Shown: positions 1,990 through 60,376 of the stretch, in pieces
Numbering within the stretch: the stretch's first letter is position 1
Layout of the letters: the number at the start of each line of letters is the position of its first letter
Origin: Ochromonas danica
Taxonomy: Eukaryota > Sar > Chrysophyceae > Chromulinales > Chromulinaceae
Length of the DNA stretch: 64,000 bases
Assembly: GCA_015146655.1 (NCBI GenBank)
Contig: VKHL01000087.1
Location: 57,642 to 121,641 of the forward strand
Reading direction: 5' to 3'
The notes under the pieces: model-generated
Databases searched by the model: none
What the model saw: the letters and a program-made list of their open reading frames with translations, nothing else
Told to the model about the DNA's origin: nothing
Position numbers and translations under genes: made by a program

Positions 1990-2712
1990 CTAAGGCGATT
2001 CGGATTTGCGTCTCTATAAGCCATGACATACAAGGAGTAGATGTTAATTAAGTAGATGAGAGGGAAGGAGCGAGAGGGGACGAACCTTGCGATCTTCGCG
2101 ATCCTCCTCGCCGTGGTGCTTCTTCTTCTTCTTCTTTTTCTTCTTCTCAGTCTCCTCTCCACCACCAGGAGTCTCCGCACTAAAGACTTGAGGAGTCTCT
2201 ACGGGCTGCACAGGCTTAGGAGGGGGGCTTGCGATGACAGGGACGGGAGCAGGAGCGGAAGCGACGGCAGCGGCAGCAGTCTTGCCTTTGGTGACTTTCG
2301 TCGTCTTCACAGGAGCGGGCGCTACGACCGCAGCAACTTGTGGGACTTCGGTGATAGGAACAACATGCTTCAGCTTGTCAGCACGCTCGGTGTAGTCGTG
2401 TTTCGCTTGGGCATCGAGCTCACTCCACTGCTTGGAGACATAGTTCATCATTTCCTTGTTGTTGATGGCGTTGCCGGTCTCTTTCATTTTCTTGAGGGTG
2501 TCAATCATGAATAAATTGTAGGCTGAAGGGGGACGCTTGGGCTTGTCGCTCTTCTCCTTCTTGTCCTTCTTTTTCTTTTTGTCGTCCTCTTTCGAAGGAC
2601 TTGAAGGAGCATGACCTTCCAGAGCCTTCAAAATGGCAATGTGCTTGTTTAGTAAATTTACTTGATCCTCAAAGATCTGCACCAGAGTGGTGGACACGTC
2701 GTTCAAGCTCAT
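1990..2712 (-). CDS. HMG-box protein with Lys-rich linkers
   Basis: Two exons are predicted, 2712-2086 and 2013-1990 (about 216 residues). The start at 2712 is the first Met before the globular part; the frame is open further upstream but reads like 5' leader. Residues about 1-40 form a helical N-terminus. A lysine-rich block follows, then one HMG box at 2549-2369 (PKRPPSAYNLFM, helix II and III with YVSKQWSEL and a Lys-rich end). The C-terminus is Ala/Pro-rich and closes with a poly-Lys run. The single HMG box suggests a non-sequence-specific chromatin architectural protein of the nucleus. Intron 2085-2014 (72 nt, gttcgt...ttatag) is inferred; if it were retained the protein would end at 2044 after a different short tail. 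Which tail is used is not certain. Confidence 0.75.
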
Positions 2713-44648: not shown

Positions 44649-45016
44649 TTGTCAAGAGTTGAGGGTAGAGGGTTGAGATGTCCGAGACAATGACAATGAC
44701 AATGACAACTAGACTTTGACAAATCTCAATGTTTTCAACCGCCAGATGCCAGATGTCCAAAGTCGTTTCAACCGACCACCCACTAAAACCTGCCCCTTTG
44801 CGACATTTTACTCGCAATTTATGACTTTCTGTTTCAAAATTTCCCTCTGCTCCCAGCCTTCCCCCACTCTCTCTTTCTGTCTCTCTCTGTCTTCGCAGTC
44901 CCTCATTGCCTCCAAACTACCTGCTGGCGTTGATCAGAATCGAATCCATCTCACCACTGCATTGGTGAGTGACTGAGCGAAGACTAGTGTTAACAGTGAA
45001 GAGTCACTAAGAGAAG
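44649..45016. promoter_or_regulatory. Promoter region of AAA ATPase copy 1 (type A)
   Basis: From about 44786 this region is, as far as I can compare, identical with the upstream region of copy 2 (minus strand, 49855 downward to 49624), including a long CT-rich tract. The first about 140 nt are unique to this site and include a (gacaat)n run at 44682-44708. Confidence 0.7.
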
Positions 45017-46462
45017 ATGCAGTACTCCGTCACCGAATTCGATCCTTCTTTGCTGCCCTTCCCAAGTGAGAAGAAGAATGTCGTCGTGATCGACGCTCAC
45101 AATCGCCTGTACCGCCTGCTTCCTCCCTACATCCTGGCCAACCAGGTGGAAGGACGTTTGCCCATGCATACCAAGGTCTTGCCCTCCAAGGCCAGCGGCG
45201 AGTTCTCTCTGGACTGTGAGATGCGCTTTGGTCGCATCGCGTTGCAGATGGGCCACGGACAGTGTTCCTTCCGCTCCTTCGATGGCGAGGTCTTCCACGC
45301 GGTCTACCAGCAGATCGGCAAACCAGTGGGGTCAGACTGTGGGGTGCAGGTCTTGCAGAACCTCATCTTGTTCTCTGACGGTTCCGTGGAGTCTCTGGCG
45401 CGTTTCCTCTCTCGCCTGATTGAGCTGTCAGAGCAGTCAGAAGAGGGTCGCTTCATCTGCTATTCATGGCATGTGGAGCACAGCTATTGGAGGGAGGAGA
45501 CGAAGATTCGCAGCCGTCCTCTCGCCTCCGTGGTGCTTCCCTCGTCGCTGAAGAATCGGCTGGTGACCGACCTGGAGAAGTTCCTTGCGCCTCGCACGAA
45601 AGACTTCTACAATCGCAATGGCATTCCTTACCGTCGCTCCTACCTCTTCTATGGCATTCCTGGCACGGGCAAGACGAGTCTGGTGCAGGCGTTGGCTGGC
45701 CATTTCCATCGCTCGGTCTCTTTCCTGATGCCCACACACCCCAAGATGACGGACGACTCTCTGCGAGAAGCCATTAACCAGATCCCTGATGACACGATCG
45801 TGGTGTTCGAAGACATCGATGCGCTCTTCTCGGCGGATCGAGAGAACCGAGTGTCAGGTTCGGCCTTGACCTTCTCGGGGTTATTGAACGCGTTGGACGG
45901 CATCTCGAATCCCAACGGTCAGGTGTTCGTGTTGACCACCAATCTACGTGACCATCTGGACTCAGCCTTGATTCGCAATGGTCGTGTGGATATGCACATC
46001 GAGTTCACGTATGCACTGCCAGAGCAGATGGAGTTGATGTGGACAAACTTCTACCCCGAGGCAGGCCATCTGGCCGGTGCGTTCTCTGCAGCAGTGACGA
46101 GTTGTTTGGAGAAAGAGAAGATCCAAGTGACCACTGCAGCATTGCAGCACTACTTCGTGACTCAGATGGACGCAACGGCTGAGGAGGCGCTGAGCCATGT
46201 GAGTGAGTTGGTGCGTGATGTGCGACAGAACTCTTCTTCAGCGATGTTGGCTGCGGCCACATTGTCGAGCACAGGCTCGGAGAGGTCGCAGGAGCAGGAG
46301 CAGGCAGAGGTCAAGGAGGGTGAGGGCGGGGTAGAGGCAGAGGTGAAAGGAAGTTCTGGCGGTACACTTGGAGAGGTCGGAGGAGCAAGGGCGGGTAGAG
46401 GCCGAGGTGGGCGAAACATATGGCGAGGCAGAGGTAGAGGTGAAAGGAAGTTCTGGCTGTAA
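45017..46462 (+). CDS. BCS1-type AAA ATPase, copy 1 (altered C-terminus)
   Basis: One exon encodes 481 residues. The AAA module has Walker A YGIPGTGKTS (about residues 212-221), Walker B TIVVFEDIDAL, then the BCS1-type LTFSGLLNALDGIS, the TTN sensor 1 and the RNGRVD Arg-finger motif. The first 170 residues match the BCS1 N-terminal domain in position (SYWREETKIRSRPLASVVL) but the usual N-terminal membrane helix of mitochondrial Bcs1 is missing, so a cytosolic or nuclear location is likely. Up to about base 46364 the gene equals copies 2 and 3 with one difference seen (ggaggg for ggaagg at about 46316-46321). Then a frame-changing duplication of about 97 bp replaces the basic KKKSFFGRRKRR tail by a Gly/Arg-rich tail (GARAGRGRGGRN...). 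The substrate of the ATPase is unknown. Confidence 0.9.
   Translation: MQYSVTEFDPSLLPFPSEKKNVVVIDAHNRLYRLLPPYILANQVEGRLPMHTKVLPSKASGEFSLDCEMRFGRIALQMGHGQCSFRSFDGEVFHAVYQQIGKPVGSDCGVQVLQNLILFSDGSVESLARFLSRLIELSEQSEEGRFICYSWHVEHSYWREETKIRSRPLASVVLPSSLKNRLVTDLEKFLAPRTKDFYNRNGIPYRRSYLFYGIPGTGKTSLVQALAGHFHRSVSFLMPTHPKMTDDSLREAINQIPDDTIVVFEDIDALFSADRENRVSGSALTFSGLLNALDGISNPNGQVFVLTTNLRDHLDSALIRNGRVDMHIEFTYALPEQMELMWTNFYPEAGHLAGAFSAAVTSCLEKEKIQVTTAALQHYFVTQMDATAEEALSHVSELVRDVRQNSSSAMLAAATLSSTGSERSQEQEQAEVKEGEGGVEAEVKGSSGGTLGEVGGARAGRGRGGRNIWRGRGRGERKFWL
46342..46457 (+). repeat. Out-of-frame tandem duplication in AAA ATPase copy 1
   Basis: The 19-mer ggtgaaaggaagttctggc is present at 46342-46360 and again at 46439-46457, an offset of 97 nt, which is one more than a multiple of three. 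The sequence before each copy is also related (ggagaggtcg, aggagca, gggtagagg). The second unit is therefore read in another frame and produces a new tail. Confidence 0.85.
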
Positions 46463-46847
46463 GCAGAAGTCCTTCCTAGTACTAGTCAACCTCTTTGAGT
46501 ATGTCTGCAGCATGATGTTGTTGATGTAAAAACAGGGCTGTGTATTTGTATTGTAAACTTTTCCATATCATATGCTTGCATCGCAGCATGGTATGCTAAC
46601 TTGGTATTGCCTAGAAGTCATCATTGATCGTTCATATTGGATTAATATCACTCACAGTGTTTTAATAGATTTAACACGTTAGCTATCACTCAACATGTTC
46701 CCTAGCTCGATCACAACAGCAACAACAAAGTGCTCACTCTTCAGAACTACACAAATGACTATATAACGACAGTCGCTATTACTGTACATCTACCACAACT
46801 ACCCGACACATCAACGGCTACCTAATCTACTTGTAACTACTACTAGT
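46463..46847. other. Intergenic region downstream of AAA copy 1
   Basis: The first about 125 nt (46491-46600) match the 3' flank of copies 2 and 3 with small indels and substitutions; the rest is unique AT-rich sequence without a gene. Confidence 0.7.
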
Positions 46848-47318
46848 CTAGTGCTTGTTGGGTTTCCTCGCTGACTTCTCGCCGAGGAGAGCATCCCACG
46901 CCATAGCGGTCGACCAAAAGACAGAAACCAAAGTGAGTTTGTGCACCATGGCGGGTGAGTTCCCTTCCAGCAGATAGTGACCGAAGACGACCTGAACTGT
47001 CCAGGCCACAACTTGCAAGGCAACGGACAGGCAGAACACTCCCATCATACTCATAGATCCTCTCAGCTGCCCTGTTATCCATGCAGTGAGGAGATGGAAG
47101 CAAGCAGTAGGATAGGCGGTGTGAGAGTTGGAGAGCAGCACTAAGACTGCTGTCACTGTGGAGAAGAGCCAGTGCCACGGAGGGAAGAGACTGACCAGCA
47201 GAGTCCATCCTAGCCACTCGAAAGGAATTGAAATCGCATGAATCCAAATATTCACCTTGTTTCTATGATAAGACTGGAAGAAAGATAGTTCCTCGACATA
47301 TGTTTCACTCCAATTCAT
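46848..47318 (-). CDS. Mpo1/DUF962-type membrane protein
   Basis: One exon encodes 156 residues with about four membrane spans. The N-terminal FFQSYHRNKVNIWIHAISIP holds the first conserved His pair of the family, and a later VVFGHYLLEGNSPAM gives the second His motif. Yeast Mpo1 is an Fe2+-dependent dioxygenase of the ER that shortens 2-hydroxy fatty acids during phytosphingosine breakdown. The length is close to yeast Mpo1 (174). The end of the protein is basic. It converges with AAA copy 1. Confidence 0.88.
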   Translation of the reverse strand: MNWSETYVEELSFFQSYHRNKVNIWIHAISIPFEWLGWTLLVSLFPPWHWLFSTVTAVLVLLSNSHTAYPTACFHLLTAWITGQLRGSMSMMGVFCLSVALQVVAWTVQVVFGHYLLEGNSPAMVHKLTLVSVFWSTAMAWDALLGEKSARKPNKH

Positions 47319-47411: not shown

Positions 47412-47517
47412 GGCTGTTTGGCTGAGTGGTTAAAGCGATGGACTTGAATCCTTCTTTTGCGAGGGCCACGCAATCCATTGGGCATCGCCCGCGTAGGTTC
47501 GAATCCTGCAGCAGTCG
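47412..47517 (+). tRNA. tRNA-Ser (anticodon TGA) with 24-nt intron
   Basis: Acceptor stem GGCTGTT pairs with AGCAGTC (G-U pairs allowed), discriminator G as normal for serine. D-arm is TGGCTGAGTGGTTAAAGCG. The anticodon stem ATGGA/TCCAT is interrupted by an intron at about 47449-47472 directly after position 37, the canonical place; after removal the loop is CTTGAAA with anticodon TGA. The long variable arm (TGGGCATCGCCCG) and the T-arm GTAGG TTCGAAT CCTGC complete a class II tRNA. A short T-run follows the gene (ttcttttt), suited to RNA polymerase III termination. Confidence 0.93.
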
Positions 47518-48009: not shown

Positions 48010-48037
48010 GAAGATCCTTTGATAACGATAAGAAGAT
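48003..48037 (+). repeat. 13-bp direct repeat at the left end of the palindrome
   Basis: acgataagaagat occurs at 48003-48015 and at 48025-48037. The second copy ends exactly where sequence symmetry with the right arm begins. Confidence 0.85.
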
Positions 48038-48159
48038 ACCGCGTTTTAGCACTTTCCCCACCCAGCTATGTAAACAAGCATATGGTATGGAATGATATGG
48101 AATAGTTTACAATACAAATACACAGCCTTGTTTACATCAACATCATGCTGCAGACATAC

Positions 48160-49623
48160 TCAAAGAGGTTGACTAGCACTAATAGTAGTAGTAGAAGACG
48201 ACGAAGGAGGAGGAACAGCCTCTGCCGCCTTGCGCTGAGCCCTGCGCTTCCTCCTTCCGAAGAACGACTTCTTCTTACCGCCAGAACTTCCTTTCACCTC
48301 TGCCTCTACCCCGCCCTCACCTTCCTTGACCTCTGCCTGCTCCTGCTCCTGCGACCTCTCCGAGCCTGTGCTCGACAATGTGGCCGCAGCCAACATCGCT
48401 GAAGAAGAGTTCTGTCGCACATCACGCACCAACTCACTCACATGGCTCAGCGCCTCCTCAGCCGTTGCGTCCATCTGAGTCACGAAGTAGTGCTGCAATG
48501 CTGCAGTGGTCACTTGGATCTTCTCTTTCTCCAAACAACTCGTCACTGCTGCAGAGAACGCACCGGCCAGATGGCCTGCCTCGGGGTAGAAGTTTGTCCA
48601 CATCAACTCCATCTGCTCTGGCAGTGCATACGTGAACTCGATGTGCATATCCACACGACCATTGCGAATCAAGGCTGAGTCCAGATGGTCACGTAGATTG
48701 GTGGTCAACACGAACACCTGACCGTTGGGATTCGAGATGCCGTCCAACGCGTTCAATAACCCCGAGAAGGTCAAGGCCGAACCTGACACTCGGTTCTCTC
48801 GATCCGCCGAGAAGAGCGCATCGATGTCTTCGAACACCACGATCGTGTCATCAGGGATCTGGTTAATGGCTTCTCGCAGAGAGTCGTCCGTCATCTTGGG
48901 GTGTGTGGGCATCAGGAAAGAGACCGAGCGATGGAAATGGCCAGCCAACGCCTGCACCAGACTCGTCTTGCCCGTGCCAGGAATGCCATAGAAGAGGTAG
49001 GAGCGACGGTAAGGAATGCCATTGCGATTGTAGAAGTCTTTCGTGCGAGGCGCAAGGAACTTCTCCAGGTCGGTCACCAGCCGATTCTTCAGCGACGAGG
49101 GAAGCACCACGGAGGCGAGAGGACGGCTGCGAATCTTCGTCTCCTCCCTCCAATAGCTGTGCTCCACATGCCATGAATAGCAGATGAAGCGACCCTCTTC
49201 TGACTGCTCTGACAGCTCAATCAGGCGAGAGAGGAAACGCGCCAGAGACTCCACGGAACCGTCAGAGAACAAGATGAGGTTCTGCAAGACCTGCACCCCA
49301 CAGTCTGACCCCACTGGTTTGCCGATCTGCTGGTAGACCGCGTGGAAGACCTCGCCATCGAAGGAGCGGAAGGAACACTGTCCGTGGCCCATCTGCAACG
49401 CGATGCGACCAAAGCGCATCTCACAGTCCAGAGAGAACTCGCCGCTGGCCTTGGAGGGCAAGACCTTGGTATGCATGGGCAAACGTCCTTCCACCTGGTT
49501 GGCCAGGATGTAGGGAGGAAGCAGGCGGTACAGGCGATTGTGAGCGTCGATCACGACGACATTCTTCTTCTCACTTGGGAAGGGCAGCAAAGAAGGATCG
49601 AATTCGGTGACGGAGTACTGCAT
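48160..49623 (-). CDS. BCS1-type AAA ATPase, copy 2
   Basis: One exon encodes 487 residues identical to copy 3 along their entire translated length. Domain content is as in copy 1 (Walker A YGIPGTGKTS, Walker B FEDIDAL, Arg-finger RNGRVD, no N-terminal membrane helix). The C-terminus KKKSFFGRRKRRAQRKAAE is strongly basic and could act as a nuclear localisation signal, followed by a Ser/Pro-rich end. Its upstream region is of type A, as in copy 1, while its 3' flank equals that of copy 3; it is thus a mosaic of the other two. It is transcribed away from copy 3. Confidence 0.92.
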   Translation of the reverse strand: MQYSVTEFDPSLLPFPSEKKNVVVIDAHNRLYRLLPPYILANQVEGRLPMHTKVLPSKASGEFSLDCEMRFGRIALQMGHGQCSFRSFDGEVFHAVYQQIGKPVGSDCGVQVLQNLILFSDGSVESLARFLSRLIELSEQSEEGRFICYSWHVEHSYWREETKIRSRPLASVVLPSSLKNRLVTDLEKFLAPRTKDFYNRNGIPYRRSYLFYGIPGTGKTSLVQALAGHFHRSVSFLMPTHPKMTDDSLREAINQIPDDTIVVFEDIDALFSADRENRVSGSALTFSGLLNALDGISNPNGQVFVLTTNLRDHLDSALIRNGRVDMHIEFTYALPEQMELMWTNFYPEAGHLAGAFSAAVTSCLEKEKIQVTTAALQHYFVTQMDATAEEALSHVSELVRDVRQNSSSAMLAAATLSSTGSERSQEQEQAEVKEGEGGVEAEVKGSSGGKKKSFFGRRKRRAQRKAAEAVPPPSSSSTTTISASQPL

Positions 49624-50095
49624 CTTCTCTTAGTGACTCTTCACTGTTAACACTAGTCTTCGCTCAGTCACTCACCAATGCAGTGGTGAGATGGATTCGA
49701 TTCTGATCAACGCCAGCAGGTAGTTTGGAGGCAATGAGGGACTGCGAAGACAGAGAGAGACAGAAAGAGAGAGTGGGGGAAGGCTGGGAGCAGAGGGAAA
49801 TTTTGAAACAGAAAGTCATAAATTGCGAGTAAAATGTCGCAAAGGGGCAGGTTTGAGACGAGCATGGCCGTTTTTTGGGTTTCTGGCGCAAAACTGCCCG
49901 CTCTTTGTGACATTTTATTCGCAATTTACGGCTTTCCATTTCAAAAGTTCGCTCTGCTCCCAGCCTTCCCCTTCTCGTCTTCCCGGTCCCTAAAACCACC
50001 TGATGATGTTGATCAGAATCGAATCCATCTCACCACTGCATTGGTGAGTGACTGAGCGAAGACTAGTGTTAACAGTGAAGAGTCACTAAGAGAAG
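49624..50095. promoter_or_regulatory. Shared divergent promoter region of AAA copies 2 and 3
   Basis: The two start codons are 472 nt apart. The proximal about 90 nt on each side (from gatcagaatcgaatccat to the ATG) are symmetrical. Beyond that the left half is type A (CT-rich tract, equal to copy 1) and the right half is type B, alignable but with many changes and a shorter CT tract. Both halves keep a tgcccnctttgygacattttaytcgcaattta-like core (49830-49855 and 49895-49928). This core is a candidate regulatory element. Confidence 0.7.
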
Positions 50096-51559
50096 ATGCA
50101 GTACTCCGTCACCGAATTCGATCCTTCTTTGCTGCCCTTCCCAAGTGAGAAGAAGAATGTCGTCGTGATCGACGCTCACAATCGCCTGTACCGCCTGCTT
50201 CCTCCCTACATCCTGGCCAACCAGGTGGAAGGACGTTTGCCCATGCATACCAAGGTCTTGCCCTCCAAGGCCAGCGGCGAGTTCTCTCTGGACTGTGAGA
50301 TGCGCTTTGGTCGCATCGCGTTGCAGATGGGCCACGGACAGTGTTCCTTCCGCTCCTTCGATGGCGAGGTCTTCCACGCGGTCTACCAGCAGATCGGCAA
50401 ACCAGTGGGGTCAGACTGTGGGGTGCAGGTCTTGCAGAACCTCATCTTGTTCTCTGACGGTTCCGTGGAGTCTCTGGCGCGTTTCCTCTCTCGCCTGATT
50501 GAGCTGTCAGAGCAGTCAGAAGAGGGTCGCTTCATCTGCTATTCATGGCATGTGGAGCACAGCTATTGGAGGGAGGAGACGAAGATTCGCAGCCGTCCTC
50601 TCGCCTCCGTGGTGCTTCCCTCGTCGCTGAAGAATCGGCTGGTGACCGACCTGGAGAAGTTCCTTGCGCCTCGCACGAAAGACTTCTACAATCGCAATGG
50701 CATTCCTTACCGTCGCTCCTACCTCTTCTATGGCATTCCTGGCACGGGCAAGACGAGTCTGGTGCAGGCGTTGGCTGGCCATTTCCATCGCTCGGTCTCT
50801 TTCCTGATGCCCACACACCCCAAGATGACGGACGACTCTCTGCGAGAAGCCATTAACCAGATCCCTGATGACACGATCGTGGTGTTCGAAGACATCGATG
50901 CGCTCTTCTCGGCGGATCGAGAGAACCGAGTGTCAGGTTCGGCCTTGACCTTCTCGGGGTTATTGAACGCGTTGGACGGCATCTCGAATCCCAACGGTCA
51001 GGTGTTCGTGTTGACCACCAATCTACGTGACCATCTGGACTCAGCCTTGATTCGCAATGGTCGTGTGGATATGCACATCGAGTTCACGTATGCACTGCCA
51101 GAGCAGATGGAGTTGATGTGGACAAACTTCTACCCCGAGGCAGGCCATCTGGCCGGTGCGTTCTCTGCAGCAGTGACGAGTTGTTTGGAGAAAGAGAAGA
51201 TCCAAGTGACCACTGCAGCATTGCAGCACTACTTCGTGACTCAGATGGACGCAACGGCTGAGGAGGCGCTGAGCCATGTGAGTGAGTTGGTGCGTGATGT
51301 GCGACAGAACTCTTCTTCAGCGATGTTGGCTGCGGCCACATTGTCGAGCACAGGCTCGGAGAGGTCGCAGGAGCAGGAGCAGGCAGAGGTCAAGGAAGGT
51401 GAGGGCGGGGTAGAGGCAGAGGTGAAAGGAAGTTCTGGCGGTAAGAAGAAGTCGTTCTTCGGAAGGAGGAAGCGCAGGGCTCAGCGCAAGGCGGCAGAGG
51501 CTGTTCCTCCTCCTTCGTCGTCTTCTACTACTACTATTAGTGCTAGTCAACCTCTTTGA
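50096..51559 (+). CDS. BCS1-type AAA ATPase, copy 3
   Basis: A single exon of 487 residues, the same protein as copy 2. The 5' side has the diverged type B promoter, which suggests this is one of the two original loci. Its 3' flank runs without break into the TATA box of the downstream TFIIB-like gene, supporting that this arm is in its native place and the opposite arm is the derived one. BCS1-type AAA proteins act as ring ATPases; mitochondrial Bcs1 translocates the Rieske protein, but the lack of the membrane helix and the basic tail here argue for a different compartment and function. Confidence 0.92.
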   Translation: MQYSVTEFDPSLLPFPSEKKNVVVIDAHNRLYRLLPPYILANQVEGRLPMHTKVLPSKASGEFSLDCEMRFGRIALQMGHGQCSFRSFDGEVFHAVYQQIGKPVGSDCGVQVLQNLILFSDGSVESLARFLSRLIELSEQSEEGRFICYSWHVEHSYWREETKIRSRPLASVVLPSSLKNRLVTDLEKFLAPRTKDFYNRNGIPYRRSYLFYGIPGTGKTSLVQALAGHFHRSVSFLMPTHPKMTDDSLREAINQIPDDTIVVFEDIDALFSADRENRVSGSALTFSGLLNALDGISNPNGQVFVLTTNLRDHLDSALIRNGRVDMHIEFTYALPEQMELMWTNFYPEAGHLAGAFSAAVTSCLEKEKIQVTTAALQHYFVTQMDATAEEALSHVSELVRDVRQNSSSAMLAAATLSSTGSERSQEQEQAEVKEGEGGVEAEVKGSSGGKKKSFFGRRKRRAQRKAAEAVPPPSSSSTTTISASQPL

Positions 51560-51680
51560 GTATGTCTGCAGCATGATGTTGATGTAAACAAGGCTGTGTA
51601 TTTGTATTGTAAACTATTCCATATCATTCCATACCATATGCTTGTTTACATAGCTGGGTGGGGAAAGTGCTAAAACGCGG

Positions 51681-51688
51681 TATAAAAG
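51681..51688 (+). promoter_or_regulatory. TATA box of the TFIIB-like gene
   Basis: TATAAAAG lies 35 nt before the start codon at 51723 and overlaps the right end of the palindrome by two bases. It is the clearest TATA element in the window. Confidence 0.6.
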
Positions 51689-51722: not shown

Positions 51723-53683
51723 ATGGCGGGAAGAGCGCGTCAGCAGCGCAGCGACAAGCTGGAAGATTTGAAGAAAAACATCGTGGCGTCTTATGGCAGC
51801 TGCCTGTTGAAGTCCTTCGAGAGCCGTCCTCTCGAGCGACTGCTGAAGAGCGACAGCCCCGAGCAGCGCGCGCAGAAGATCGCGACCAACAAGGAGATAA
51901 TCGCGGAGCGCGAGGCCATCTACAAGAAGAACGAGGAGGAGATGGTCTACGAGCTCGAGAAGATCATGGCTCGCATTGAGGCCAGCGGCAAGGCTGCTGT
52001 TGTCTCTGGCGGTCGTCCGCCTGGCGAGGGACTGGACGCCCCCACGACTGCCCCGGCGCACGGCAGCCAAATCCACTGCACGCAGTGCGGCAACAAGGTC
52101 TGCCCTCCTCCTCCTCCCCCTCCCCCTCCTACTGCTCCTCTCTTTCTCACGCATCATGGCGTGGCTAATCCCAGGACGAGAACAACTTCTTCACAGACCC
52201 CACCAGCGGGGACGTCATCTGCCTGGGCGAGGACGGCAAAGGCTGCGGCACAGTCGTGGTCGACCACGAAGTGCATTCCGGCGCTGAGAAGCGCAACTTC
52301 GAAGGCGAAGAGGACCGCAACCACTTCGGCCCCGCGCCCAACAAGCTCATGCCTGACGTGGTCAACCTGGAGACGTCGATGCTCACCACGCAGTCCAACG
52401 GCAAGGAGTCCTCGCTGTTCAAGCGACTGGCACAGGCGCAGCAGTCCGTTGAGATGAACTTGTCCACCATTGGACGTGAAGACAGACACACGCGCGAGGG
52501 ATACAAGGCGAAGATGAAGAAAATGGCCTTCCGCCATCTGGAAGAGGTCGGCGGCAATTTGAATCTGCACGACGCCGTCATCAACCGCGCCAAGGAGAAG
52601 TTCGCTGACTTCCGTGACGAGCGAGAGGCCATGCACAACTTCGAAGGAAGCGTCTTGGCGTGTCTGGCGCTGGCTTATGAGGAGCTTTCATCGTCGCTCG
52701 ATCTCGACCGCCTGCCTCGGCCCGCCGCCTTCGTCTCGCCCGACAGCCGCCTGCTGGACAACCTGCCTCCTGTCAAGCGGCTGGCTAGTCGAGAGGAGCA
52801 GCTAGATGACGTGGTGCTGTGCACGGAGGCACAGTCTGGACTGGGCAGATTCTCTTTCGAGGCGGCGAGGCATTGGCTGCAGATCGTCGCCTCTTCTGCC
52901 CCCGCCGCTCTGCGACAACATGCTGAGGGATTCGCGACTCACCTTTCAGACCGCATAGCGAAGGAAGAAGAGGATGGCAAGGGGAAGGAGCGGCGAGGGC
53001 GAGGCCTTGACGACTTGGGCAAAGGCATTTTCGGCGTGACGACTGTCTCGCAGCGAATGAATCGTTACGGCCAGCACGCGACTTCGACTTCCTCCTCGCA
53101 CAACTCCATGACCGCGGGCAAGATCTTGCTGCGGTTCAATCTCGCCCAAGAGGTGCAAACTCACTTCTCCTCTGCAGAAGTCTCGCGAGAAGTGCGCGCA
53201 GAGATCGAGTCGCTCTTCAAAGAGGCAATCTTGCGTCGCACACAATACGACAAGGCGTTGCAAGAACAAGAACATCGCGATGAGGAAGAAAAGAAGCGCT
53301 TGATGACCGAGGAGAACAACGCCGTGCCTGCCAAGAAGCGACGCCTCCAACAAATGCAAAACCAGCTGCAGCAACAACAGCAAAGCTTGTCTGCTTCGGC
53401 TACCACCTCCACCAGTCAGGGGGAGGAGGTGGAGGAGGAGGAGTTGCAGTTGCTAGAAGTCGATCTGGAGGATCTCGTGGGAGGAACGATTCGCACTTTG
53501 GCCAGCAATGCTGCCTCCTCCTCCTTCGCCTTCTCTTCAGAGGCGAAGGCAGTCGAAGAGAGCGCTGCGGAGGGAATCACTGCAGCTGCTGCAATCTCTT
53601 CTGCTGCTCCAGCCGTGCAAGTGAAGGAAGCGCCCGCCGCGGAGACTGTGAAGAAGCCGCGCCGCCGAGTGATCATCGCGTAG
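51723..53683 (+). CDS. Divergent TFIIB-like transcription factor
   Basis: Exons 51723-52097 and 52175-53683 give 627 residues. The first about 110 residues are a charged helical extension (LEDLKKNIVASYGSCLLKSF...). Then the zinc ribbon: IHCTQCGNK, FTDPTSGDVICLG and a final Cys in KGCGTVV; the second metal pair is widely spaced (CxxxxxxxC) compared with the normal CxxC. The B-linker VHSGAEKRNFEGEEDRNHFGP matches the TFIIB/Brf pattern. One cyclin-like repeat is recognisable (HLEEVGGNLNLHDAVINRAKEKF...LACLALAYEEL); the second is poorly conserved. The last about 150 residues are a Gln/Glu-rich coiled coil and an Ala/Ser tail. TFIIB bridges TBP and RNA polymerase II; Brf does so for polymerase III. 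I cannot decide between them, or a lineage-specific paralogue. Confidence 0.7.
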
Positions 53684-55216: not shown

Positions 55217-58200
55217 CTACAGTCGCACGGTCAGACCGGATTTCGACTTGTAGTATGTGGAAGAGTTCGTGTTGGCGCCAACCGCTGCACCAGCTAGCAT
55301 TGAAGGAGCAGAGGGAGTGAATCCAGGAGGAGCGGGTGTCGAGCTGTTGACAGGAGCAGGTGCTACCGAGCCCACAGCCAATCCGAAGGGCTGGTAGGCG
55401 CCGCCGAATCCATTGCTAGCAGTGGGAACACTTTTGGCAGCAACACTACTAGAAGAAGAAGCTGCAGGTTCTGAGGCAGCTGAAGGAGCAGAGGAACTAG
55501 AAGACGAAGATCCAGTGAGCAGACTGGCAAGAAGGTCACTAGGCTTGAAGGACACACTCGAAGAGGTAGTTGTCGATGCAACGGGATGTGGGAGGGAAAG
55601 GCCGAGCGGAGGAGCGGAGAGTGTCTCTGAGGAGGAAGCTGCGGTGGCGAGAGGCAGCTGCAACGACGCCAGCACATCTTGCATGGAGAACGTTTGGTTC
55701 ACCAGGGGAGCGGGAGCGGGAAGAGAAGGGACAGAAGCAGCCGGTCGACTCAGAGGAACTAGTCCCGGAGCTGGCACTTGCGCAACCGCTCGCGGAGCCA
55801 CAACTTGAGGTGCCACTGCAGGGGAGACAGTAAGGGGGACATAGGGGAGTTTTGCAGGGCCAACTGGTTGCTGTTGCTGAGCTGCAACGGGAGGGACAGA
55901 TGATGCAGCAGAGACAGCGGGAGGAAGGGCAGCAGGCGGCGTTGGAGGCCGTGGGACAACTTCTTCCTCTTCCTCTTGCTGTGGTGTAGGAGAAGGAGGA
56001 GCGACAGTCGCGGAAGAATCATCAACCACCACAGCAGCTTCTGTAGCAGCTTGTTGGGCGGCCAACTTGCGGCGCAGACGTCGCATGGATGACTTGGAGA
56101 GCTGCTTGTTGACAGCAGGTTGTGAAGGCGCAGAGGACCCACTCGCATTCGCGACAACAACTGCTCCATTCTGCTCCACTTCCTCATCTTCTTGCTCTGA
56201 CTCTTCCTCACTTCCCGGAACATCACTAGCATTCTTGTCATTGCCACTGCCCACGAGATAGGCAGGCTCATAGCCTGCTTCGGAAAGGAAGGATTGAATG
56301 GCATCGATGGCCTCCTGACAGCCGAGAAGAGGGCCGCGCACTTTGATTCGTGCAGCACCACTGCTGCTTGGCTTGGACTTCCCTTTGCTTCCCTCGCCTC
56401 GCCCACCAGGCTTCTCAACTTCTAATCTGACTCCAAACAAACCTTCCCACTCTTTAATTCGAGTGCCTCCACTACCAATAAGAGCGCCAGTCAGACCACC
56501 GCCAGATGTATTTGTGGAACCCCCAGCAGTTGGTAGAATAAGAACTCTTTGCACGGTCAGCTTGGTCACTTCCTCAGAGGCCAAGAAAGCTTCGACGCGC
56601 TTCACTGCAGCCAAGACCTTTTCTTCTTCGCCAAGCAGTCGCACGCCGCTGTTGTCATTGAGCACTTCGATGCTCACTCCGCATTCCTTGCGCAACGCTG
56701 TGATGTGCGCTCCCTGCTTGCCGATGAACAAAGGCACAATGTCAGCGCAAGGGAAGGCTACTTCAGCCTGGCCTCTGCCGCGGGCAAGCACAATCTCGGC
56801 GAGGGCAGCTCCCACCTCCTGTACATCCAGACCAGCACTGCTTCCGGATGCCGAGGGAGTAAGAGTGATTGTTCGCGCATGGCGATCAACAATCAGCTCC
56901 CAATCTCCCTTTGGTTGCTGTTTACCTCCATCTTTCTCTGTCTCATTCTTCTTCACCACCTCGATGTTCTCTTCTGTTTTGGCATCAACATCTTCTTTTA
57001 CAGCCACCTCAGCTTCACCTTCAGCATTGGCATCGCCAGACTGACTTGACGATAGCTTTGCCACCGCCTGAGAGAGAAGCGCTTGTACGTCAGCTTTGCC
57101 AGAACTGGGCGAGACCAGTTGAGACCAAACCACTTCAGTGTTAACTGGAATGACTACATGGGTAGCATTCCAGGAGGCCAAGAGGTGATCGATGAGGTGC
57201 ATTCCGGAATGAAGACCATTCTCCTCATCTCCAGCTATAAACAGAATGCCCTTCAAGAAGTCGACTGTTAATTTCACACCAACAGCACTGAGTGACTGGG
57301 AAAGCAATCGCACGCTAGAAGAGTTGGTTCCCGAGGAGAAGGAAACATCAAGCAAGAAAGAGCGTGGAGCCTCGAGGAAGGCTGTCGAGGATGTAAAGAG
57401 CGTGTGCATCACCTTATACAAGGCTTGGCGTACGACACTCTCCTTTGTTAGGACAGCATTGATCCACTCCATCACCGCAGCAGTGGCAGGTACATTGGAG
57501 TTGATCAGTGCAGAACCTCCCCGCACCGCCTTGACCACTTCCGAAGAGTTCTCATAATGATAGCTGATTGTATCTATACTATCATTAGAGGCACTAGCTT
57601 CCACAGTGATGCGATGCTTCTGCTGGAAAAAGATCAACGGCTTGGGCAGAAGTTGATCGCGAATTCTGTCTGCTAACTTTCGCGCTTGTGCAGGAAGAAC
57701 AGCCAAAGAATATTTGTAGCTAGCCGGGTCAAAGAAAAGCGTGAACAATCTTCGCGCTTCATCCACAGCAAGCAAACTACCCCGCAAAGTCACTTTTGTG
57801 CTCTTAGCGTGCGGTGAGACCAATTGGCAATCGACGAAGAGGTTTGCATTGCGATAGAGATCAAGCGCTTTTCGTGCGAGGCAATCAATCAGCAGATGCA
57901 CTCCAGTAGGCCTTTCTTTGCTTGCACCAGCACCCATCTCACCTCCTTCTTGCGCCTCGTCAGAGTGAGGCACCGCATGTAAACCAGGCTGACCGTGATG
58001 AATCACAAACCGATCGCTGACCCGTGTGTTGTTACAGAAAGAAAGCACCACTTCTCTCGCAGTCTCCAGCGCCCCTGAAGAAGAGCGAGCAGCAGATGTG
58101 CCAGGAGGAACAAAGAGACGCGCCGCGGCTTTTTGGCGCGACACCTCAATGAAAACGCCAGTTTCAGCTTCGAGCTTACGCAACTGTTGCCCAGCACGCC

Positions 58201-60376
58201 CAATGAGTGCGGGGAGTGCCAAAGAGGGCAGAAGAAGCAGCGCTGCGTTGTATGCAGATTGGCCCAAGATGATGCCTCGTATGTGAGCCAGAGCTTGCGT
58301 AACAGAGGCAGTGCGACCTTGCACTGCCAACTTCACTGGAGAAGACTTGGGTCCCTCCTTTACAGAACCAGCAGATGACTTGCGGTCGAGAGTAATGTCA
58401 ACTTCGTGCTGATCCTCTAACACACGAAGCAAAGTCTTGTTGTCATTGCCGCCTGGAGCAGGAGCGTCCGCAACATCAGCATTTGCATTAGCACTGGTGT
58501 TGAGAGGACGGAGGAAGAGATTGAGATCATCCCCTTCAATTTCAAGTGCTTCGGACGAGAGATCTTCAAGATAAGCACGGATGAGACGCTCAGCAGGCTG
58601 GACAAGCGATTGCCTGCCCTTCAACTTGACCTGCCCAGCCTTTCTCAAAGGATAGAGAACAACCCCAGCCGCACCTTCTCCACCAGGAGCAGCAGCAGAA
58701 GATTGAGACAGCTGCTGCCTCATTGTTTGAAAAGAAGCTAACTTGGACATCAGACCAAACTTCCAGTCTTCCACTTTATCGATGGTAGTGGTGTAGTTCT
58801 GATCTAAAAGATCTCCAATTTCCTTCTCAATCATCGCACGCACCTCTTTGTTCTCGGCATGAAGATAAAGCTGCCCATCTACAACATCCAAATGTGCCAC
58901 TTTGTTGTATTTCTCTCGCAAAGCCTTGATCGTGCTTCCGCCTTTCCCCAGCAAGATGGGAAGAGTATCTTCGTCTAGCGCGATGGTCGTTGTGTCACGT
59001 TGGAAGGCAGTAGCAACTTCGCGCAGACGATGTACTGCGGTCTGTACCTTAAAGTTCTGTCCTTTCACCTTCACCTGATAGAGAACAGGTCCCGCTTCGC
59101 TTGCTTTCTCCTTCTCCCCGCCCTCACTGTCGATGCGCACACCAAAATCGCGGGAAATTCCGCGCAATACGTTGGTTGTTCCATCCTCCAGCATGGTAGA
59201 GATGAAAGCACCGAGGAAGACGTGTTTCTCAAAGGACAGCGTCTCCTCGACCTCCTTGTTCTCTTGAATTGAAGCGCGAATTGTCTCTCCAGCTGCATGG
59301 ACATTCGTGCGAACACCCACTATGGATAAGCGCTTCTTCTCTTTGTCAATCTGACAGAGCACGGCATATTCACTTTCAATGCTCTTGATGTGGCTCCCTT
59401 GCTTGCCAATGATGAATGCCAAATGACCTGATTCCAACTCCAAATCCGAACGAATAATATTCCGATTAATGGTCTGAATATCAGCCTTGGCTGCTTCGAC
59501 CTGATTAGTGAGGCCAACAATCCTCAAGTTATTCTTGACAGAAGAGAGATCGATCTTGACGTTGTGCTTCGTCTGCAACTCCTGGACCAGATTGAACTTA
59601 TTGGAGAGCAAGTAAGTCACGCAAGCCTCAGTTACAGAGAGATCCACATTGACTGTATCGCAAAGAACATAGAGATATTCATAGACCTTGACGATATCTT
59701 CAGGGGTACCCAGGATTGTGAGCACTTTCTCTCCATCTCTCTGCTGGAGAGTTGAGAGCGTCAGAGAGACGTTGTAGTTGTCTTCCACATATTTGATGGT
59801 CGATCCACTCTTACCAATAATCTTAGCAGCAGCATGCTCCACCGCCTCTTCAAGCTCGTCAGGTGTCAAAGTTGGATGATGAGGATGGGTTTGTGCAATC
59901 GTGGTGACCAGGTCAGACAACTTGTAGACTCGCTCAGCAATAGCCTGATTGGCGACTTTGACTTTCGCAGCAATTCGCACTTTCTTCAACCCTGCCAGCA
60001 GTTCGTCCATGGCGGTCTCTTTCTCGAGCAACTGAGTGCGCAGCAGATGGAGCTGAGCCTTCATGGCCTCGGCCTCAGCGTTTTGCTTGCTGTAGGCCAA
60101 AGCTGCCTTCTTCTTTTGCTTGAGCTTGTCGAGTTCATAGAGAAAGGTGCGCTCTTCAGCCTTGTTGTGAGAAGTGCGTGTGTACTGCTTCTCCAATGCA
60201 GTGATGGCGGCAGTGAGGCTTTCGACGGTGTCTCGAGGCGCGGGGCCCATCGCCTTCTTCTGAGTCTTGATCTTACCATCAAGAGTGTTGAAAGCTTCGC
60301 GCGCGGCAGTGCGCTCAATGCGGATTGCCTCGAGCCGATCACAGAGAAACTTCTCGATTTCTTCGGGAGTTGCCAT
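55217..60376 (-). CDS. Vigilin-like multi-KH-domain RNA-binding protein
   Basis: A single 5,160-nt exon encodes 1,719 residues. After an N-terminal coiled coil (about 1-125) come many KH domains. Those with a clear G-x-x-G loop are IIGKSGSTIKYVEDNY (about 187), IIGKQGSHIKSIESEY (about 325), LLGKGGSTIKALREKYN (about 480), LIGRAGQQLRKLEAETG (about 725), FIGKQGAHITALRKECG (about 1215) and LIGSGGTRIKEWEGLFG (about 1300). Others between them have lost the GxxG loop, as in vigilin and yeast Scp160. The C-terminal 350 residues are low-complexity Ala/Ser/Pro/Gln-rich. Vigilin/Scp160 binds ribosomes and many mRNAs at the ER. The length is greater than the about 1,270 of human vigilin owing to the tail and long inter-KH regions. 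The absence of introns over 5 kb is notable here. Confidence 0.9.
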   Translation of the reverse strand: MATPEEIEKFLCDRLEAIRIERTAAREAFNTLDGKIKTQKKAMGPAPRDTVESLTAAITALEKQYTRTSHNKAEERTFLYELDKLKQKKKAALAYSKQNAEAEAMKAQLHLLRTQLLEKETAMDELLAGLKKVRIAAKVKVANQAIAERVYKLSDLVTTIAQTHPHHPTLTPDELEEAVEHAAAKIIGKSGSTIKYVEDNYNVSLTLSTLQQRDGEKVLTILGTPEDIVKVYEYLYVLCDTVNVDLSVTEACVTYLLSNKFNLVQELQTKHNVKIDLSSVKNNLRIVGLTNQVEAAKADIQTINRNIIRSDLELESGHLAFIIGKQGSHIKSIESEYAVLCQIDKEKKRLSIVGVRTNVHAAGETIRASIQENKEVEETLSFEKHVFLGAFISTMLEDGTTNVLRGISRDFGVRIDSEGGEKEKASEAGPVLYQVKVKGQNFKVQTAVHRLREVATAFQRDTTTIALDEDTLPILLGKGGSTIKALREKYNKVAHLDVVDGQLYLHAENKEVRAMIEKEIGDLLDQNYTTTIDKVEDWKFGLMSKLASFQTMRQQLSQSSAAAPGGEGAAGVVLYPLRKAGQVKLKGRQSLVQPAERLIRAYLEDLSSEALEIEGDDLNLFLRPLNTSANANADVADAPAPGGNDNKTLLRVLEDQHEVDITLDRKSSAGSVKEGPKSSPVKLAVQGRTASVTQALAHIRGIILGQSAYNAALLLLPSLALPALIGRAGQQLRKLEAETGVFIEVSRQKAAARLFVPPGTSAARSSSGALETAREVVLSFCNNTRVSDRFVIHHGQPGLHAVPHSDEAQEGGEMGAGASKERPTGVHLLIDCLARKALDLYRNANLFVDCQLVSPHAKSTKVTLRGSLLAVDEARRLFTLFFDPASYKYSLAVLPAQARKLADRIRDQLLPKPLIFFQQKHRITVEASASNDSIDTISYHYENSSEVVKAVRGGSALINSNVPATAAVMEWINAVLTKESVVRQALYKVMHTLFTSSTAFLEAPRSFLLDVSFSSGTNSSSVRLLSQSLSAVGVKLTVDFLKGILFIAGDEENGLHSGMHLIDHLLASWNATHVVIPVNTEVVWSQLVSPSSGKADVQALLSQAVAKLSSSQSGDANAEGEAEVAVKEDVDAKTEENIEVVKKNETEKDGGKQQPKGDWELIVDRHARTITLTPSASGSSAGLDVQEVGAALAEIVLARGRGQAEVAFPCADIVPLFIGKQGAHITALRKECGVSIEVLNDNSGVRLLGEEEKVLAAVKRVEAFLASEEVTKLTVQRVLILPTAGGSTNTSGGGLTGALIGSGGTRIKEWEGLFGVRLEVEKPGGRGEGSKGKSKPSSSGAARIKVRGPLLGCQEAIDAIQSFLSEAGYEPAYLVGSGNDKNASDVPGSEEESEQEDEEVEQNGAVVVANASGSSAPSQPAVNKQLSKSSMRRLRRKLAAQQAATEAAVVVDDSSATVAPPSPTPQQEEEEEVVPRPPTPPAALPPAVSAASSVPPVAAQQQQPVGPAKLPYVPLTVSPAVAPQVVAPRAVAQVPAPGLVPLSRPAASVPSLPAPAPLVNQTFSMQDVLASLQLPLATAASSSETLSAPPLGLSLPHPVASTTTSSSVSFKPSDLLASLLTGSSSSSSSAPSAASEPAASSSSSVAAKSVPTASNGFGGAYQPFGLAVGSVAPAPVNSSTPAPPGFTPSAPSMLAGAAVGANTNSSTYYKSKSGLTVRL

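Follow-up and report, generated by a model that had tools for sequence, protein, structure and literature searches.

The window analysed here, a 64,000-nt stretch of contig C87 (VKHL01000087.1) of Ochromonas danica, contains three copies of a gene for a BCS1-like AAA ATPase in the order C1 (+), C2 (–), and C3 (+), with the middle copy inverted (Table 1). The first-pass annotation had described two identical genes in head-to-head orientation; the proteins of C2 and C3 are indeed identical, but the number of copies is three, C1 having been overlooked. A whole-genome DNA search (31,187,593 bases in 337 contigs) recovered C1, C2, and C3 and one weak match, which is the remnant belonging to C1 itself, and the genome thus holds at least three copies of the gene. 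The end of C1 lies approximately 1.7 kb from the stop codon of C2, and the interval between the two includes 1.46 kb of other sequence, in which an Mpo1-like gene and a tRNA are located. The C-terminus of C1 is its own and appears by eye to be Gly/Arg-rich. Homology of C1 to C2 and C3 stops near position 46571 (blastn matches 44783–46571 to 49857–48092 at 95.9%), whereas the homology between C2 and C3 reaches 48036 and 51683, respectively. Behind the shared part of C1, a likely remnant of its older 3′ end matches positions 51355–51457 of C3 at 78% over 109 nt (blastn), and positions 46276–46364 and 46367–46461 within C1 also match each other at 78%.

Table 1. Features of the ATPase locus, in positions of the window.
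Feature	Position	Strand	Basis
C1 5′ flank/promoter, same type as that of C2	44786..45016	+	C1 and C2 identical from –231 to ATG
C1, BCS1-like AAA ATPase, 481 aa	45017..46462	+	ORF; PF00004 and PF25426
Likely remnant of the older, diverged 3′ end of C1, downstream of the homogenised tract and out of register	46367..46475	+	78% matches
Left palindrome arm, without mismatch to right arm	48036..49711	–	Arm comparison
C2, BCS1-like AAA ATPase, 487 aa; promoter as in C1, tail and 3′ flank as in C3	48160..49623	–	No private substitution among 1735 ungapped alignment columns
Asymmetric centre with divergent promoters, of C1 type on the left and C3 type on the right	49712..50007	.	Sequence comparison
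Right palindrome arm	50008..51683	+	Arm comparison
C3, BCS1-like AAA ATPase, 487 aa	50096..51559	+	ORF; domain match

The ATPase carries an AAA domain (PF00004, 76.3 bits) and a BCS1-type lid (PF25426, 38.5 bits), both of which are common to mitochondrial BCS1, and mitochondrial BCS1 is also the best PDB match (6sh3, 6uko, and others) for residues 136–398. However, the BCS1_N domain (PF08740) was not found in the whole protein at E ≤ 0.001 or in residues 1–135 at E ≤ 1. The genome's own BCS1 (L008, contig C158), which is 37% identical to the ATPase over 252 aligned positions, has BCS1_N with 139.5 bits. Judging from this domain content, the ATPase is BCS1-like and not BCS1, because BCS1_N is undetectable in it and present in the genome's own BCS1. 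A single-sequence AlphaFold2 model of the ATPase was unusable (mean pLDDT 36.3). A viral origin was also considered and rejected, as a pattern search of IMG/VR returned nine stretches that fit the pattern, none of which was confirmed as a relative.

C2 and C3 form a palindrome with inverted arms of 1691 nt (48036–49726 and 49993–51683), which differ only at positions 49712, 49713, 49716, and 49722. These four mismatches are all non-coding and restricted to the inner ends, leaving an arm stretch of 1676 nt free of mismatches. The palindrome of 3.6 kb proposed in the first-pass annotation is therefore real, and its symmetry midpoint at 49859/49860 is confirmed, but it is not spacer-less, since 296 nt separate the mismatch-free arms. 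Within this centre, two segments of 74 nt, located 58 nt apart, can be paired at 86%. The right arm terminates inside TATAAAAG (51681–51688, located by eye), ahead of the next gene. Across the whole 121.6-kb contig, repeats of ≥100 bp at E ≤ 1e-15 (dust filter on) consist of copies of the ATPase unit only, and the palindrome is thus beyond chance expectation. As identical inverted copies are difficult to assemble, a fold-back chimera or a mis-expanded repeat could be suspected, and the histone palindrome on contig C15 (see below) does reach the end of its contig. However, a fold-back predicts symmetry through the centre, whereas the centre observed here is asymmetric and the promoter of C2 matches that of the third copy, C1, rather than that of C3. 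Moreover, the outer flanks of the palindrome do not repeat and the palindrome ends approximately 12 kb inside the contig, and an assembly artefact is regarded as very unlikely.

Identity between C1 and C2 spans –231 to +1301 relative to the ATG, that between C1 and C3 spans –88 to +1301, and that between C2 and C3 runs from –88 as far as +1588. The block that is invariant across all three copies is thus 1389 nt long, although near-identical repeats merged by the assembler could hide a few true differences in this core. Over 1347 coding nt (315.3 synonymous sites), C2 and C3 do not differ, and C1 differs from both at a single site, at which the residue is unchanged according to the ORF and the alignment. 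Upstream of the block, from –235 to –92, C3 differs from C1 and C2 at 24 of 116 sites and by three indels (79% identity for this flank). C1 and C2 differ from each other at 2 of 144 positions in the same interval, both upstream of –231, where these two copies also diverge, and C2 equals C1 at all 143 nt from –231 to –89. Downstream, the 3′ part of C1 is approximately 71–78% identical to C3 depending on the alignment used (78% by blastn over the 109 nt given above and 76% in another alignment of the tail).

A three-way alignment of the span homologous in all copies (44786–46571 in C1) comprises 1735 ungapped columns, 91 of which are variable. C3 accounts for 24 private sites, all upstream of –88, and C1 for 67, all downstream of +1301 (67 of 231 ungapped columns; an upper figure that is inflated by aligning the repetitive tail of C1), while C2 has none. 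The split of private sites by position is highly significant (Fisher's test, p = 1.7e-22). An invariant run of 1389 columns was not reached in any of 10,000 shuffles (maximum 258), although the shuffle ignores the slower change at protein-constrained coding sites, a point on which the count of synonymous differences is the better guide. That count also bears on the idea that extreme purifying selection on the nucleotide sequence kept the core identical without any conversion. Because one difference was counted over 315.3 synonymous sites, the 88 nt preceding the ATG are unchanged, and unrelated families (tubulin, LHC, and sHSP) show similar identity, such selection is extremely unlikely as the cause.

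The absence of C2-private substitutions, together with C1-type sequence upstream and C3-type sequence downstream, identifies C2 as a clean mosaic of a C1 promoter, the common core, and a C3 tail with its 3′ flank. From this comparison, the “diverged centre” of the palindrome is best read as a C1-type promoter facing a C3-type promoter and not as decay of the palindrome. The earlier suggestion that the centre diverged after formation and thereby stabilises the palindrome is not supported, as two promoter types meet at the centre and one of them also occurs in C1. C3 probably occupies the older position, because its 3′ arm is contiguous with the promoter of the next gene.

Taken together, the three BCS1-like AAA ATPase genes very probably form a local family that undergoes ectopic (interlocus) gene conversion. 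The signature of this process is a sharply bounded stretch of identity embedded in flanks that are a fifth or more apart. Ectopic conversion is favoured over recent duplication alone, since C1 and C3, which are direct copies, also share an identical core between diverged flanks. If the copies were simply too young to have diverged, with no conversion involved, C2 would fit well, since its lack of private substitutions in 1735 ungapped columns indicates that C2 or its last overwriting is young, and recent duplication is possible for C2 alone. As an account of the whole locus it is quite unlikely, given that the 1389 identical nt of C1 and C3 adjoin upstream sequence with 79% and downstream sequence with approximately 71–78% identity, and given two cases elsewhere in the genome, the sHSP pair on contig C89 and the tubulin copy T1, in which identity stops abruptly inside the coding region or at its edge.

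The forward-inverted-forward order of C1, C2, and C3 is also that of the inverted triplications attributed to ODIRA in the available text of two papers (PMC4689423, PMC10766186), and a replication error of this kind, or template switching, could have produced the three copies at once, with conversion being incidental. However, the abstract of the ODIRA model suggests that the copies should represent the same amplicon, whereas the homology of C1 extends to approximately 46571 and that of C2 and C3 to the promoter of the neighbouring gene. In addition, the DNA with the Mpo1-like gene and the tRNA lies between C1 and C2, and the flanks of C1 and C3 are diverged. An inverted triplication is therefore considered unlikely for the locus, although an error of this type could be the origin of C2. 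Similarly, C2 could alternatively have arisen from one template-switching event, which would leave the common core of C1 and C3 unexplained.

Under ectopic conversion, C1 and C3 would be the two older copies, diverged by approximately 20% or more outside the shared block. The 3′ arm of C2 stops at the point where the TATA-like box of the C3 neighbour starts, which suggests that C2 originated from C3 by inverted duplication and was placed head-to-head with it, together with the 3′ flank of C3 up to that box. Break repair templated on another copy may then have overwritten a block of approximately 1.4 kb in all three genes; the block itself is observed, and this repair route would account for it. 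The mosaic state of C2 suggests that it later received a C1-type promoter while keeping its C3-type tail. In C1, the converted sequence seems to stop out of register within repetitive DNA, which may have left the old 3′ remnant and the Gly/Arg-rich tail. The likely effect of this arrangement would be an increased dose of one enzyme core, expressed from promoters of two types and ending in either of two C-terminal tails.

Similar pairs were sought by searching the genome with nine gene families in addition to the ATPase itself and scanning the resulting tables by eye for neighbours with the same score, separate reading frames, and a distance of ≤5 kb. The families were hand-picked with a preference for multi-copy ones, so that recurrence among them does not represent a rate; the scan of a whole contig was confined to C87. 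Same-score neighbours occurred in four of the nine families (LHC, tubulin, histone, and sHSP), with six head-to-head pairs, no tail-to-tail pair, and four direct adjacencies (three in one LHC array and one in tubulin). The ATPase locus adds the head-to-head pair C2–C3, for a total of seven, and the tail-to-tail pair C1–C2. Same-score neighbouring pairs were not seen in the tables for HSP70, EF-Tu-type GTPases, actin, ubiquitin, and mitochondrial carriers. For ubiquitin, the matches include the repeat units of a single polyubiquitin frame and, on contig C22, a direct pair whose scores differ. Histone neighbours on contigs C9 and C46 are arranged head-to-head, but their scores differ as well, and they were left out of the count. 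The LHC search gave 47 matches, some of which are exon pieces.

The DNA of all six head-to-head pairs outside the ATPase locus (LHC, tubulin, histone H3, and three sHSP pairs) was checked, and each contains identical or near-identical tracts. The LHC pair on contig C166 has 1070-nt arms without mismatches and a spacer of 171 nt; the one LHC protein compared, from this pair, has fucoxanthin FCPII chains as its best match. The tubulin genes on contig C80, which appear by eye to be alpha-tubulin, comprise three copies with no differences in 1362 coding nt, and the similarity of T1 to T2 and T3 ends within approximately 10 nt of the coding region, beyond which the flanks show no clear similarity. 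The histone H3 pair on contig C15 has arms of approximately 5.13 kb with one mismatch and one indel, and is less certain because it reaches the contig end. The sHSP pair on contig C43 is identical over 876 nt, starting approximately 130 nt inside the coding region, while the gene starts and the centre are diverged; a third sHSP of this type lies approximately 130 kb from the pair, to which it is 98.4% (641 nt) and 99.8% (472 nt) identical. The pair on contig C89 shares an identical tract of 334 nt between unrelated N-termini and 3′ flanks, and the stop codons are different. The sHSP pair on contig C15 has no differences in 774 coding nt and an ungapped run of 985 nt with three mismatches, and its flanks diverge further out. 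Gene conversion, which the first-pass annotation had raised, is thus supported by the identical C1–C3 core between diverged flanks, by the mosaic C2, and by these replicates elsewhere in the genome. Its view of the palindrome as a device for keeping a gene pair uniform is not sustained: homogenisation does not require a palindrome, because the direct copies C1 and C3, the tubulin copies T1 and T2, and the distant sHSP are equally homogenised.

This kind of system is already known, and its recurrence in one genome is the interesting part. The closest match is found in Drosophila, in which Hsp70Aa/Ab, Hsp70Ba/Bb, and Amy-p/Amy-d are described, in the available text of PMC3924832, as palindromic paralogue pairs under concerted evolution, with the homogeneity of Amy limited to the coding sequence and the flanks evolving independently. 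The ATPase locus shares the closely linked inverted paralogues (the ATGs of C2 and C3 are 472 nt apart) and a coding identity far above that of the flanks, with sharp edges. It differs from the Drosophila pairs, as presented there, by a third, direct copy, a promoter/tail mosaic, and another gene and lineage. In Caenorhabditis elegans, the head-to-head stress genes hsp16-1/hsp16-48 also lie in an inverted arrangement, with 416 unique bp between the modules, for which the original authors favoured conversion according to the available text of PMC3966223; however, what was duplicated in that case is an entire module of two genes. Chlamydomonas HSP22E/HSP22F provides an algal example of the head-to-head layout, with approximately 368 bp between start sites, 93% identity, and differences mostly in the promoter and 5′ UTR, which the authors read as a recent duplication; in contrast to the present locus, the accessible text mentions no third copy (PMC5700999). 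A paper on LHC duplications in Symbiodinium mentions gene conversion in the part available (PMC4351107). Among the titles and abstract openings listed from open-access literature, no paper was found on such pairs in fucoxanthin algae, and no earlier report was found of the ATPase cluster, the mosaic copy, or the recurrence. For BCS1 in stramenopiles, the one paper listed deals with Cdc48.

The recurrence raises the possibility, which we hold tentatively and at somewhat less than even chances, that the alga keeps a class of multi-copy genes (stress, cytoskeletal, light-harvesting, and histone) as head-to-head palindromic pairs, in which the coding regions are continually overwritten by ectopic conversion while the asymmetric promoter centre escapes. 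The pairs would then reflect a genome-wide architecture of copy number plus homogenisation and not isolated cases. The three-copy ATPase locus in itself preserves the edges of conversion tracts very cleanly and thus provides a natural record of them for a protist genome. In phylogenies or datings based on coding sequence alone, old duplicates of this kind would appear new. If the recurrence is genome-wide, O. danica would be a tractable alga for studying the reasons for which inverted gene pairs are retained and the factors that determine where conversion tracts end.

Between the BCS1-like AAA ATPase gene copies C1 and C2 lie an Mpo1-like gene and a tRNA, the latter detected by Rfam and not by ARAGORN, which on inspection by eye looks like an intron-containing tRNA-Ser. 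The gene directly after copy C3, also read by eye, has two exons, and the intron separating them, near 52.1-52.2 kb, is rich in pyrimidines; the gene's start looks like a CxxC zinc ribbon, and a Pfam search with its 3' ORF gave no match. Further right, the multi-KH protein is reminiscent of vigilin.

Features in the window and in multi-copy gene families elsewhere in the genome assembly (G000; C15, C89 and C224 are contigs, L042 and L055 extracted stretches)
Feature	Position	Strand	Remarks
Mpo1-like gene	window 46848-47318	-	PF06127 match
tRNA	window 47412-47517	+	
Gene after C3	window 51723-53683	+	
1719-aa protein gene	window 55217-60376	-	several KH-domain matches (Pfam)
Histone cluster palindrome	G000:C15:293108-304588		arms ~5.13 kb, spacer ~1.2 kb
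LHC (light-harvesting) tandem array	L042 (G000:C224:7001-17000)		4 genes, repeat unit ~2.4 kb
sHSP (small heat-shock protein) pair, inverted identical tract	L055 (G000:C89:53501-57000), 963-1296 and 2014-2347		334 nt, no mismatch

Elsewhere in the genome, the histone arms differ by one mismatch and one indel; this palindrome reaches the contig end, and a 591-nt piece occurs a third time near its centre. The LHC repeat units are >99.9% identical. Around the sHSP tract, the rest of the coding sequence and the flanks are unrelated, and the tract is an unusually clean conversion tract.
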